From a virus, in IMG/VR virus record IMGVR_UViG_3300031975_000697, positions 1 to 53,108 of that record: 53,108 nucleotides of DNA; one strand, 5' to 3'. Shown piece after piece: positions 1-52,189 of this stretch. The notes under the pieces were generated by a model. It was given only the letters and a program-made list of their open reading frames with translations, had not been told where the DNA came from and did not search any database. Position 1 is the first letter of the stretch. Every line of letters starts with the position of its first letter. A program made the translations under genes and the position numbers.

Positions 1-248
1 TGCGTCTGAGACCTCGCGTACGGGTACAGGGTCAATTTGGAAACGAGGCTCGCGCTCCTGTAGCGTGTCCTGCCCCTCAGCGCCACGCTGACGCGTGTGT
101 CCAGGTCAGCCGGTGTATCCGGACCTAGGAATCGGCACAGAGCCCCTCATCCATTGTGTGATCTCCGACACACTAGAGGACGTTTGTCTCCGAGTTACAT
201 GTACTACTGGTGGGAGAGGGTAGCGACCTCCGACCTTCGGGAGAGGGG
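1..248. other. Left genome end, non-coding leader
   Basis: No convincing gene is seen before 508. The first bases resemble the left cohesive-end region of cluster A phages, as recalled, but the end structure itself cannot be read from one strand. Two small hairpins are visible: a bulged one using CCGG pairs around 107-127, and GTGTG/CACAC at 156-160/169-173. A long open frame starting at 97 runs in frame into the HNH gene but has no ribosome-binding site and odd composition, so it was not used. Confidence 0.5.
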
Positions 249-492
249 GAGGCCAGGGGGTGAGGGCCTCGCTCTGGCTCGGCCTCGGGGCGCCCCTCCA
301 AGGGCGCCGCCCGGAGAGCCGCTCGAATGCGGCTCGTCGAACGGCAGCCTTCGGGGCTGCCCGATCGCAGCTCGTCCAAGAGCTGCTCTCCCGGTGGACC
401 GCCTGGAGCGGTCCCCAGAACAGCGAAGCTGTTCCAATCCAACCCATCGAAAACCCGAAGGGTTTTCTCATTGGCCGCGCCCGAGCGCGGCC
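249..492. other. Array of nine consecutive perfect hairpins
   Basis: Nine stem-loops follow one another with no coding between them. Stems (left/right arm): 249-254/265-270, 289-295/302-308, 316-322/329-335, 343-349/355-361, 367-373/380-386, 396-402/408-414, 418-424/428-434, 449-456/460-467 and 473-479/486-492. All but the first (6 bp) are perfect 7- or 8-bp stems with 3-6-nt loops. The last eight begin about every 22-31 bp. The stem sequences all differ, so pairing rather than sequence is what is repeated. The array ends just before the ribosome-binding site of the HNH gene. It could be a structured leader RNA, a DNA cruciform or packaging element, or a binding array. Function is unknown. 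Confidence 0.85.
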
Positions 493-507
493 CCAGAGGA
501 GACCCTC

Positions 508-801
508 ATGTGGGAACACGCGAGCAGACGCAGGCAGGAACTCCCCCCGGAGTGGGAGGAGATTCGCCTTGCCGTGCTGCGAGACGCCGAGTGGATGTGC
601 GAGCTCGGCTGGGCAGGGTGCCTAGTCGAAGCGACCGACGTCGATCACCGCAAGCGCGGAAACGACCACAGCCGCTCCAACCTCCAAGCCCTGTGCTCGG
701 AGTGCCACAAGAAGAAGACCTCCCGCGAAGGCGTGGAGGCCCGTCGCAAACTCAGAGCCCGGAGGAAGAGACCACCAGAGAGACATCCCGGGCGTAGATG
801 A
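508..801 (+). CDS. HNH endonuclease
   Basis: A 97-aa protein with the HNH fold: CELGWAGC, then the DVDHRKRG core, then CSECHKKK, giving zinc cysteines around the catalytic DH and the final H. Such phage HNH proteins nick DNA and often work with terminase during packaging, which fits its place just upstream of the small terminase. The ATG at 508 is chosen because AGAGGAG lies at 495-501, seven bases before it. The frame stays open upstream to 97 through the hairpin array, but that part is not protein-like. A hairpin (803-808/814-819) follows the stop codon. Confidence 0.85.
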   Translation: MWEHASRRRQELPPEWEEIRLAVLRDAEWMCELGWAGCLVEATDVDHRKRGNDHSRSNLQALCSECHKKKTSREGVEARRKLRARRKRPPERHPGRR

Positions 802-840
802 CGCCGGCCAGGTGCCGGCCCCACGCCCAGGAGGCACCCA

Positions 841-1394: not shown

Positions 1395-1721
1395 ATGGCC
1401 GATCTCGGCATCAGGGCCGACCAGGACACGCTCGTCCTCTGGAAAGGCCGCGACTTCAAGTGGGCCTTCGACAATCTCGACCCCGAGACTGGCGACCCCA
1501 TCGACTTCCCAGCCGGTCGGCTGTTCTTCGAGCTCCAGACCGGGGAGACGCCCACCGAGTGGGACTTCAGCTTCAACGGCTCCCAGGCCGTCATCAAGGT
1601 CGAGTCCGACGAGGTCGCGCAGATCCCGAAGCGGACCAAATGGCAGCTCGTATTCCTCCCCGATGGCGAGGTCGCGGGCGGTGACCCGATCACCGCAGGA
1701 CTGGTCGAGGTGGTTGGCTGA
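1395..1721 (+). CDS. LtfC-like beta-sandwich tail protein
   Basis: 108 aa; begins [18 protein letters not shown] and is rich in beta-forming residues. The pattern (an N-terminal WKG-x-DF segment, then alternating strands, then a C-terminal GLVEV) fits the LtfC/Gp6 beta-sandwich domain family found beside actinophage tail-fibre genes. Its TGA overlaps the ATG of the collagen-like protein by one base (TGATG), so the two are probably translated together. The role is inferred to be tail-fibre attachment or assembly. Ribosome-binding site AAAGGAA lies upstream. Confidence 0.6.
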
Positions 1722-4700
1722 TGAGGCTCAAGGGCTACCCGCCAGAGGGAACCCCCGTCTACTCCTACTTGACCAAGCCCACCGGCTCGATCGTCGGATC
1801 GGCCAAACTACCGGTAGGTCGGATCATGTCCCTCCCCGGCCTGCCAGGCCCCCGAGGCGATAAAGGCGAGACCGGCGAGCCTGGACCGCAAGGTCCTGAA
1901 GGACCGAAGGGGGATACGGGCGCCACTGGACCCCAAGGTCCTCAGGGCGTCCCCGGAGACGAGGGGCCGGCAGGCCCGGAGGGTCCCGAAGGTCCCCAAG
2001 GACCGCAGGGCATTTCCGGAGAGGACGGCGCGACCGGACCTCAGGGTCCTCAAGGCATACAAGGTGAGGTCGGCCCGACCGGGCCTCAAGGCATTCAAGG
2101 ACCCACTGGCCCGAAGGGAGACAAGGGAGATACCGGCGACACCGGCCCAGTCGGACCTCAAGGCCTCCAAGGCATTCAAGGCGAGGCCGGAGACACCGGC
2201 CCGCAGGGACCGGAAGGTCCCGTAGGCCCCACCGGGCCGAAAGGTGACACAGGCGATACAGGACCCGCTGGACCCCAGGGAGAGCAGGGCATACAAGGCC
2301 CAACAGGACCCAAGGGGGACACTGGTGACACAGGACCCGAAGGCCCACAAGGCCCTCAGGGTGCAACGGGACTCCAAGGCCCACAAGGCGATACAGGCCC
2401 CGTTGGTCCCAAAGGCGACACCGGGGACACAGGACCACAGGGACCGACAGGCCCGGAAGGCCCTGTAGGACCTCAAGGTCCGAAGGGTGACCAAGGCGAC
2501 ACCGGACCTCAGGGGCCGACTGGCGACGGTCTGACGATCGACGAAACGGTCGCGGACTACGCGTCGCTTCCCACGGGGCTCGGCTCCGGAGACAACGGGT
2601 ACACCGCGTTCGTACAGAGCAACGGTCGCCTCTACGTCTGGTCGGGAACCGCGTGGCCGGCAGAGGCCGAAGGCGCACAGATCCAAGGCCAGGAAGGTCC
2701 GCAGGGGCCGACCGGACCCGAGGGTCCTCAGGGGCCACAGGGAATCCAAGGCCCTGCTGGCAACGACGGGGCGCAAGGACCGGAAGGTCCGCAGGGTCCT
2801 GAAGGCCCTCCAGGAACGACCGACTACAACGAGTTGGAAAACCTCCCGGATCTCGGCACCAAGGTAGACGTATCGTCCACGCCGTACCGGGTGTATGCCA
2901 CGGACAATAATGGTGAGCAGACGACCTTCCCACATACGGTCGGTGCCCTGGAGGGCTCGGTAGTTCGTCGTGACACATCAGGTCGTGCGCAGTTCTCAAC
3001 ACCAGCAGCAAACGCCGATGCAGCTAACAAGTTGTATGTCGACGACGAGGTTGCCAAGAAAGTTGGTATAGAGCCGGTCAACGACGCCTACCCTATCGTC
3101 GACAGCGCGGCTCTAGTCTTCGACACATACCGGGTGGAGGCGACCAATCCATTGCCGCCTCTCTGGAATGACCTGGCCTACAACAACCTTAAAGGCGGGT
3201 CGACAGAGGTAACCCTGAACGGGCAGCCTTGGTCAGGCCTCGGTATCGACGACGCTTTCACCCCGGAAGCGTTCCCGGCGTCGAACAGCGGTATGTCTCC
3301 CAGCGACGTCGTTGTCATCACCGTCAACCTGCACCGGAACATCCGCTACGAGCAGCAGATCGGCATCCTCATGGGAGGGTCCTGGTACTCCGAGGATGTC
3401 ACCATCGAGGCGTACTGGGGCGGTGCGTGGCACGAGGTGTACAGCGCCGCAGGAAGCAACAGCAAGTTGCACTGTGCCAAGTACACCGAGAACGCATCTA
3501 GCCCCATCACCAACCTGCGGTACACGTTGACCAACCACCGGTCGACGTTGCTGAGGATCGTCTCTCTGTTCGCCACGTCCTACGACAGCGATCTACTGTC
3601 GGCTGCTTTCGTCAACCGCGAGGGCGGGTCGATATACGGACACATCAGCGACTATGAGAACCCGACAGACGACAGCCACCTGGCCCGAAAGGGCTACGTG
3701 GACGCCGAGATCGAGGCAATCGAGCTAACCCCCGGACCTGCCGGCGCAGACGGGGCTTCAGCCTACGAAGTCGCTGTCTCGCAGGGGTACTCGGGCACAG
3801 AAGCCCAGTGGCTATCTTCTCTGGAGGGGCCGCAAGGACCCCAAGGGCCTCAAGGCCCAGCCGGCGACGATGGAGAAGAGGGGCCTCAAGGTCCGCAAGG
3901 GCCACAGGGACCTCAAGGCATCCAGGGCATCCAAGGTCCTCAAGGTGATCCCGGCGCCGATGGCGTTGACGGAGCAACTGGCCCAGAGGGGCCACAAGGA
4001 CCGGTCGGACCTACTGGCCCGAAGGGTGACACGGGAGACCAAGGACCGCAGGGTCTAAAGGGTGACACCGGGGATACCGGACCCGAAGGCCCACAGGGGC
4101 CTAAGGGAGATACCGGCGACACCGGCCCGCAGGGCATACAAGGACCTCCGGGAGACGACGGAGCCCAAGGACCGGAAGGGCCTCAGGGACCGCAAGGGCC
4201 TACCGGGCCAGAAGGACCCGAGGGACCTCGCGGACCACGGTTCGGACTGACTCCGACAGCGGTGATCTCGTCGAACTATACCGCGTCCGTTGGCAGTTAC
4301 GTTGTCGTCAACGCAGTTGCCGCTCTGAATGTTTCGCTACCAAGCTCCCCATCTGGAGGAGACGCGGTAGGCGTATACATCTCGGACGGCACGGCAGACG
4401 TCAACCTGCTAGCACCGGGCTCGGAGCTGCTATACAACGGCAGCGGAATGACCTCGATGGTCCTCCAGGACGAGAACACCCTCGTTGGCCTATCGGTCTG
4501 GGAGTACAGCTCATCCGGGAACTTCTGGTTCCTGGTGAACTACAACACCGCTCCGTCCTCGACGGACATCGTGGATTCCACCCCGTTCGGCAGGGATCTG
4601 GTCACCGGCACCGAGTCGGATGCTCGCACCTCGTTGGGAGTGTTCGAGCAAGAGGAGATCTCCCAAGCAGCCTACGACGCTCTCGGAGCTGGAAGGCCCA

Positions 4701-4726
4701 ACAAGCTGTACATCATCACGTCATAA
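1721..4726 (+). CDS. Collagen-like minor tail protein
   Basis: 1001 aa. The first about 40 residues are a short globular segment. Collagen Gly-X-Y repeats ([13 protein letters not shown] types) run to about residue 268, followed by a short domain with a YVWSGTAW stretch. A second, shorter collagen run spans about 320-362, and a globular region about 365-690 follows. A third collagen run (about 700-840) leads to a C-terminal domain ending in NKLYIITS. Phage collagen-like proteins form trimeric tail fibres; this one is probably a host-binding fibre on the tail. Codons vary among repeats, so the repeats are not a recent amplification. It belongs to the adhesin group 1395-6522. Confidence 0.85.
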
Positions 4727-52110: not shown

Positions 52111-52184
52111 GTGGGTAGCCGAGAATCGAACTCGGTAGCTTGCGCCAGAGGCCGGCGATCGTTCCATCGCGCCATGCCTACCCT
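52111..52184 (-). other. tRNA-like element, probably degenerate
   Basis: The - strand has a perfect T-arm (CCGAG, loop TTCGATT, CTCGG) and GGGTAG/CTACCC arms about 71 bases apart, the span of a tRNA. The anticodon arm pairs only four bases (CGCC/GGCG) with loop GGCCTCT, which lacks U33, and no regular D-arm is found. A decayed tRNA or a tRNA mimic; not called as a functional tRNA. Confidence 0.4.
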
Positions 52185-52189
52185 GATGT

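Follow-up and report, generated by a model that had tools for sequence, protein, structure and literature searches.

The window analysed here, that is, the whole 53,108-nucleotide stretch of IMG/VR virus record IMGVR_UViG_3300031975_000697, carries a row of small perfect hairpins ahead of its first late gene, and rows of the same kind, built from other stems, stand at the same place in many related phages. That this hairpin array is a real, conserved element in a fixed location is well supported. Its position is best explained if it serves as the 5' untranslated leader in the mRNA of the late (virion and lysis) operon, and it is apparently a transcribed RNA element previously undescribed as a structure. 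Full-text searches of the accessible literature, the Kampy and WC1 papers among it, returned no description of such a row.

The hairpin row in the window

Eight perfect hairpins with stems of 7-8 bp are packed into 204 nt of the window at 289-492 (Table 1), the starts of successive units lying 22-31 nt apart and no two stem sequences being alike. A sequence-only reading made earlier had described nine hairpins here. Eight of them are confirmed, as are the spacing it gave for the last eight and the difference of every stem from the others, while the leftmost, with its 6-bp stem, does no better than chance. In 3000 dinucleotide shuffles of 249-492, non-overlapping perfect stems of at least 7 bp averaged 0.23 and never exceeded three, compared with eight observed; shuffling at the same composition, a check proposed with the original description, thus yields far fewer stems than the window has. 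The first 500 bp hold eight of the 30 perfect hairpins of at least 7 bp counted over the whole 53-kb genome. Folded as RNA, 200-510 scores z = -6.3 for the + strand and -5.6 for the - strand, and a fold restricted to local pairing has z = -7.9 for 249-492 compared with +0.3 for the DNA upstream.

The 3' end of the array lies a few bases ahead of the ribosome-binding site (RBS) of the first late gene, and a terminal hairpin of like kind (GGCCGCGC, GCCCGCGC or GCCGCGCC) is present in many relatives. The HNH frame of the window is open across the entire array, giving a 234-aa ORF (97-801, + strand). A coding role is unlikely in view of the relatives, 58 of 62 of which have in-frame stops within the array.

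Table 1. Left-end features of the window and the basis on which each was assigned
Feature	Position	Strand	Basis or detail
Probable late-transcript start region (CATGTACTAC...GGGAGAGGG block)	198..248	+	Inferred from published starts of relatives (~230 in L5/D29; near 200 in Kampy)
Hairpin 1, GAGGCC/GGCCTC, weak	249..270	+	6-bp stem, 10-nt loop; z -1.3, alone indistinguishable from chance
Hairpin 2, GGCGCCC-CTCCAA-GGGCGCC	289..308	+	7 bp; -14.7 kcal/mol
Hairpin 3, GAGCCGC-TCGAAT-GCGGCTC	316..335	+	7 bp; -13.7 kcal/mol
Hairpin 4, GGCAGCC-TTCGG-GGCTGCC	343..361	+	7 bp; -13.8 kcal/mol
Hairpin 5, GCAGCTC-GTCCAA-GAGCTGC	367..386	+	7 bp; -12.4 kcal/mol
Hairpin 6, GGACCGC-CTGGA-GCGGTCC	396..414	+	7 bp; -12.3 kcal/mol
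Hairpin 7, GAACAGC-GAA-GCTGTTC	418..434	+	7 bp; -7.7 kcal/mol
Hairpin 8, GAAAACCC-GAA-GGGTTTTC	449..467	+	8 bp; -8.5 kcal/mol
Hairpin 9, final one ahead of RBS, GGCCGCGC-CCGA-GCGCGGCC	473..492	+	8 bp; -17 kcal/mol
RBS of first late gene, AGAGGAG	495..501	+	Sequence
HNH endonuclease, 97 aa, first late gene	508..801	+	Pfam PF01844, E 2e-7; PHROG 333, E 1e-39
Hairpin GCCGGC-CAGGT-GCCGGC, HNH/terminase intergenic	803..819	+	Sequence
Small terminase subunit, 164 aa	841..1335	+	Pfam PF25673, E 3e-40

A search of the window against Rfam returned nothing above the gathering score except one tRNA, and the earlier remark that no listed feature type explains the row holds to that extent. Sequence repeats or mobile palindromes were ruled out, as all of the stems differ. 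At the site of the hairpin between the HNH and terminase genes, relatives keep a CAGGT or CAGGA loop on other perfect stems (AGCGGGC, TAGCGGC, GTGGGC).

Distribution among relatives and position at the late promoter

By sequence comparison the window phage is of the Cluster A type. Over the structural genes the named phages that match it best, Peaches and Miramae among them, belong to Cluster A (~75% identity), and a stoperator-like 13-mer, GTTCRNTGTCAAG, occurs 19 times between 6683 and 52949, compared with no occurrence of the reversed control. Fifteen of these sites are on the + strand, all from 32090 on, and four on the - strand, all before 23827; the late leader of the window has none, unlike A2-type phages, in which one immediately precedes the late start. 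D29, L5 and Bxb1, which are among the best-studied mycobacteriophages, belong to Cluster A along with hundreds of sequenced relatives. The only stretch of the window that aligns as DNA to A5-type phages is 198-286, at 76-77% identity, and in DNA comparison the hairpins of the window align to no named phage.

The left ends of relatives were gathered through the HNH gene and joined with those of named phages, after which duplicates were removed; a search with the small terminase as query found no relatives. We counted as an array any run of at least four perfect hairpins (at least 7 bp) that lies after the late promoter and before the first late gene. Eighty-six deduplicated loci have one, among them mycobacteriophages, prophages, metagenomic contigs and the Cluster CA phages of Rhodococcus, and in all of them it lies in the late-operon leader, which is probably untranslated. 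The array of D29 consists of six hairpins at 225-369, the array of Kampy begins at 196, and that of the Rhodococcus phage Erik is at 553-665. Bxb1 (A1) has a hairpin-rich leader in another style, with some larger loops, and the Streptomyces relative Daudau gave no array signal (z 0.1). In 11 diverse phages the local RNA-fold z of the leader ranges from -5.7 to -10.4, and that of the DNA just upstream from +1.9 to -2.4. Per 100 nt there are about 3.4-3.6 hairpins within the array; upstream the figure is 0.1-0.3, and farther downstream it is mostly 0.02-0.3. The length of array stems peaks sharply at 7-8 bp, whereas chance hairpins in the same loci decay geometrically from 6. Rows hold 5-9 units across phages, and the number, order and loops of the hairpins are not conserved between groups.

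The array keeps to the late promoter. A2-type phages have, in this order, a stoperator, TATTATG, the first hairpin, further hairpins and the ribosome site; some relatives carry an insertion of about 2 kb of genes ahead of HNH, and there the array remains at the promoter, and in prophages it remains upstream of HNH. Neither 1-248 of the window, adjoining the left end, nor the right-end non-coding DNA at 51-53 kb (z near 0), whose position corresponds to that of the strongly transcribed early leader in L5 and its relatives, has an array. A structured leader RNA, one of the roles suggested from the sequence alone, fits this layout, in which the array follows the late transcript start and precedes the first start codon. 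A general trait of non-coding or highly transcribed phage DNA was rejected as an explanation on the right-end value.

Transcription of the region is documented in relatives. Counted from the left end, the late transcript of D29 and L5 starts at about 230 bp (PMC5712189). That of Kampy starts near 200, in a region that forms the highest single peak at 60 min and yields no peptides; its authors attribute the peak mostly to a pile-up of reads at the start site, and by BLAST they found no conservation outside A4 (PMC4626039). In WC1 the feature nc_1, between genes 1 and 2, collects the most reads of any phage feature from 30 to 120 min (PMC10986025). It spans 375-717, and as WC1 380-700 is identical in sequence to the corresponding part of Erik, nc_1 contains the array at 553-665. 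The Kampy left peak, WC1 nc_1 and the D29 late leader occupy the same place, from the late start to gene 1, and have arrays inside them; the Kampy and WC1 RNAs are late and very abundant in published RNA-seq, and the available text of those papers does not report the hairpin row. Among Cluster A phages a left-hand RNA is listed for D29 and Kampy and not for L5, StarStuff, RedRock or SWU1 (PMC10986025), so its abundance may not be uniform. What is conserved in the left-end non-coding RNA of Clusters A and CA is structure, and not sequence.

Some smaller observations concern these left ends. Several A2-type phages (L034 at 139-158, L030 and others) have an extra hairpin upstream of the promoter, about 90 nt before the late start. 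It is of the GAGCGGC-TTTCAG-GCCGCTC type, its stem varying between phages and its loop staying similar, and is possibly a cos or promoter element. Three arrays (L084, L041, L096) have spacers, such as ACTTGACATAGTACAGA and GTACTTGACATAGA, that resemble stoperators (the reverse complement ends in TGTCAAG). In A4-type and similar loci (L084, L089, L090, L095) the HNH coding sequence folds strongly (z -4.5 to -6.6), one example being CGGTTGCCT-CAGGA-AGGCAACCG, which spans the codons for GCLRKAT.

Turnover of the stems

In the late-leader arrays of relatives structure is kept while sequence changes, a conclusion that the comparison of leaders supports. An RNAalifold consensus was disturbed by gaps and by mixed hairpin registers, and named stems were counted instead. 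The evidence of compensatory change comes from A2-type relatives, the stems of the window having no close relative that aligns beyond 198-286: three named helices in 31 A2-type leaders are 96.7% paired and hold 43 double-changed cells, compared with 12.7 after shuffling and 1-8 with the partners slid. All eight positions of the helix GATCCGGC-AACC-GCCGGATC are paired in 31 of 31 sequences, with zero G-U; the pair is UA, AU or CG at one position and GC, CG or UA at another, under an AACC loop that is nearly constant. G-U makes up 5 of the 666 paired cells in the three aligned helices, compared with 10.7% of internal tRNA pairs in the same phages, and a single internal G-T in otherwise perfect 8-bp stems is no commoner in arrays than elsewhere. 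The compensatory changes that the sequence-only reading had proposed to look for are thus present in these A2-type relatives, and its claim of selection for structure, as opposed to recent duplication, agrees with relatives that keep rows with different stems and compensatory changes.

It looks, as a secondary matter, as though the pairing of the arms is maintained partly by template switching during replication. When the template is switched between inverted repeats, arms are known to become homogenised and spacers inverted (PMC8604942), and such switching would explain compensation without G-U intermediates. In one pair of loci, L024 (252) and L026 (251), the stem AGAGCGCC and its flanks are identical and the loop TTCAG is exactly inverted to CTGAA, the only clear case in an array. 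Loops of 5-6 nt have their reverse complement in the set in 28 of 107 instances, compared with 9.3 expected when per-position composition is kept (P < 0.0005). Loop inversion with an identical stem is not above chance by a crude permutation of loops among stems (2 compared with 1.1), and our support for the L024/L026 case rests on its identical flanks together with the excess of reverse-complement loop pairs. In a comparison made to look for a strand preference, the first loop mismatch is T.G in 65 cases and C.A in 44. Since arrays exist only in late leaders, template switching would be a helper of selection and not a replacement for it.

Possible functions of the leader hairpins

Our preferred reading, held tentatively and at a little under even confidence, is that the row armours the start of the late mRNA whatever its stem sequences, blocking RNases and Rho and leaving a stable leader RNA. 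As RNA polymerase leaves the late promoter, each unit of about 20 nt would fold at once and only with itself, and the chain of local folds would leave hardly any unbroken single strand in the long untranslated leader. Landing sites would be denied to host endonucleases, 5' exonucleases and the termination factor Rho until ribosomes load at gene 1, and the leader would persist after processing as a very stable RNA. If it is occupancy that matters and not sequence, the stems would be free to change while pairing is kept; different stems would also avert mispairing and repeat-mediated deletion. We infer both the protection from RNases and Rho and every link from fold to protection. Occupancy is nevertheless the simplest account of the features to be explained: the arrays are found only in late leaders, the hairpins are small and uniform, stem sequence is a matter of indifference, spacers are short and the RNA accumulates. 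Rho-dependent termination is dominant in mycobacteria (PMC12288462).

Several observations count against such protection. In A4-type phages hairpins run on into the translated HNH gene, which shielding of an untranslated part does not predict. The near-absence of G-U is stricter than RNA stability alone needs, and AACC loops conserved above changing stems hint at sequence recognition. The Kampy peak, as its authors read it, would mostly reflect reads piling up at a start site (PMC4626039). In more general terms, and somewhat more guardedly, it is possible that Clusters A and CA share a sequence-free late-leader element, a uniform row of 7-8-bp hairpins maintained in part by template switching, that controls the fate of the late transcript as a whole.

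Stabilising leaders of the ompA and T4 gene 32 type, in bacterial and phage mRNAs, likewise place hairpins at the start of an abundant message. Their hairpins number one to a few and are conserved in sequence, whereas the array has 5-9 that are uniform, sequence-indifferent and nearly free of G-U. TIGR arrays (TIGR-Tas) are also tandem small hairpin-like units in phages; the window differs in having no repeated sequence in its array and no match to a Nop-domain protein (PF01798) in its genome, and TIGR-Tas was rejected on these grounds.

Among the rival explanations, we regard as unlikely, though deserving some weight, an attenuator in which tandem U-less terminators stop most late transcripts until an antiterminator or a change in the host intervenes, the leader RNA being the terminated product, as with lambda 6S RNA and tR'. 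We know of no antiterminator in Cluster A-type phages, which counts against it, and it would be costly to set nine terminators ahead of a late operon that is strongly expressed. Intrinsic terminators, including the mycobacterial I-shaped ones, share with the array a 7-8-bp stem, a 3-6-nt loop and G+C-richness, but the array has no U-tract, comes as 5-9 in a row and stands at the start of an operon and not at its end. A row of U-tract terminators was rejected, there being no U-tract directly after the hairpins either in the T counts of the arrays or in the spacers of the window; the 8 nt that follow have 0-2 T in 70% of cases. One paper reports I-shaped, U-less terminators in mycobacteria, yet it cites a 2014 title that requires a U-tract and a 2020 title that does not (PMC12288462), leaving the need for one disputed. 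In Kampy and WC1 the leader RNA is far more abundant than the RNA downstream, which favours attenuation. Antitermination in cis, in which nascent hairpins would bind RNA polymerase and cause later terminators to be ignored over the late operon of more than 20 kb, suits the place of the array directly after the late promoter, the length of that operon and, in one group, loops (AACC, CAGT/CTGAA) that are conserved above stems with compensating changes. It has its model in the put RNAs of HK022-like phages, stem-loops that also act in cis directly after a phage promoter. The put RNAs are, however, a defined pair of stem-loops with a required, conserved sequence, whereas the hairpins of the array are many and vary in number, order and loops across groups, and we consider this decidedly unlikely.

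A trans-acting leader, whose abundant small structured RNAs would sponge a host protein (an RNase, Rho or a defence sensor) or regulate the host, is improbable in our view. Its very high abundance late in infection in Kampy and WC1 and the short spacers, which could be cut to release units, would suit such a role, as would the right-end leader RNA of L5, which is stable, processed and toxic when cloned. But the right-end RNA region of the window has no such array (z near 0), a partner is not known, and a trans role does not need a place at the head of an operon. Mutational drive without function, with template switching perfecting chance quasi-palindromes in heavily transcribed, replicating non-coding DNA, is very improbable even though it would account for the exact loop inversion, the excess of reverse-complement loops and the scarcity of G-U intermediates by a process known to homogenise arms and invert spacers (PMC8604942). 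The other non-coding DNA of the same phage (1-248 and 51-53 kb) has no array, in the groups examined the promoter and the ribosome site bound the arrays, stems keep to a narrow range of sizes, and the conserved AACC loops oppose unselected turnover. Least probable of all is an element acting as DNA near cos, whether a packaging site, cruciforms or a binding array for HNH or terminase. The row does lie within about 600 bp of the left end, and perfect pairing is strand-symmetric, but there is no array in 1-248 beside that end and the region is transcribed in relatives. The cos and packaging role raised in the sequence-only reading is not supported: where about 2 kb of genes parts the array from HNH and terminase, the array stays at the late promoter. 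Its binding array for these two proteins is not supported either, as it is the promoter that the array follows and there is no common stem sequence for a protein to read.

Two transcriptome studies had left their most abundant late phage RNA unexplained; its anatomy can now be seen and put to the test. If the occupancy account is true, an arbitrary row of hairpins would be a portable shield for long untranslated RNA in Rho-dominated mycobacteria. The arrays also preserve what looks like a natural record of arms homogenised and loops inverted by template switching, useful for asking how compensation arises without G-U intermediates.

Elsewhere in the window, a long protein of collagen-like Gly-X-Y repeats, probably a minor tail protein, is encoded at 1721-4726. 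The right end carries a tRNA-like sequence (GGGTAGGCATGG...CTCGGCTACCC) at about 52113-52187 on the - strand that ARAGORN does not call.
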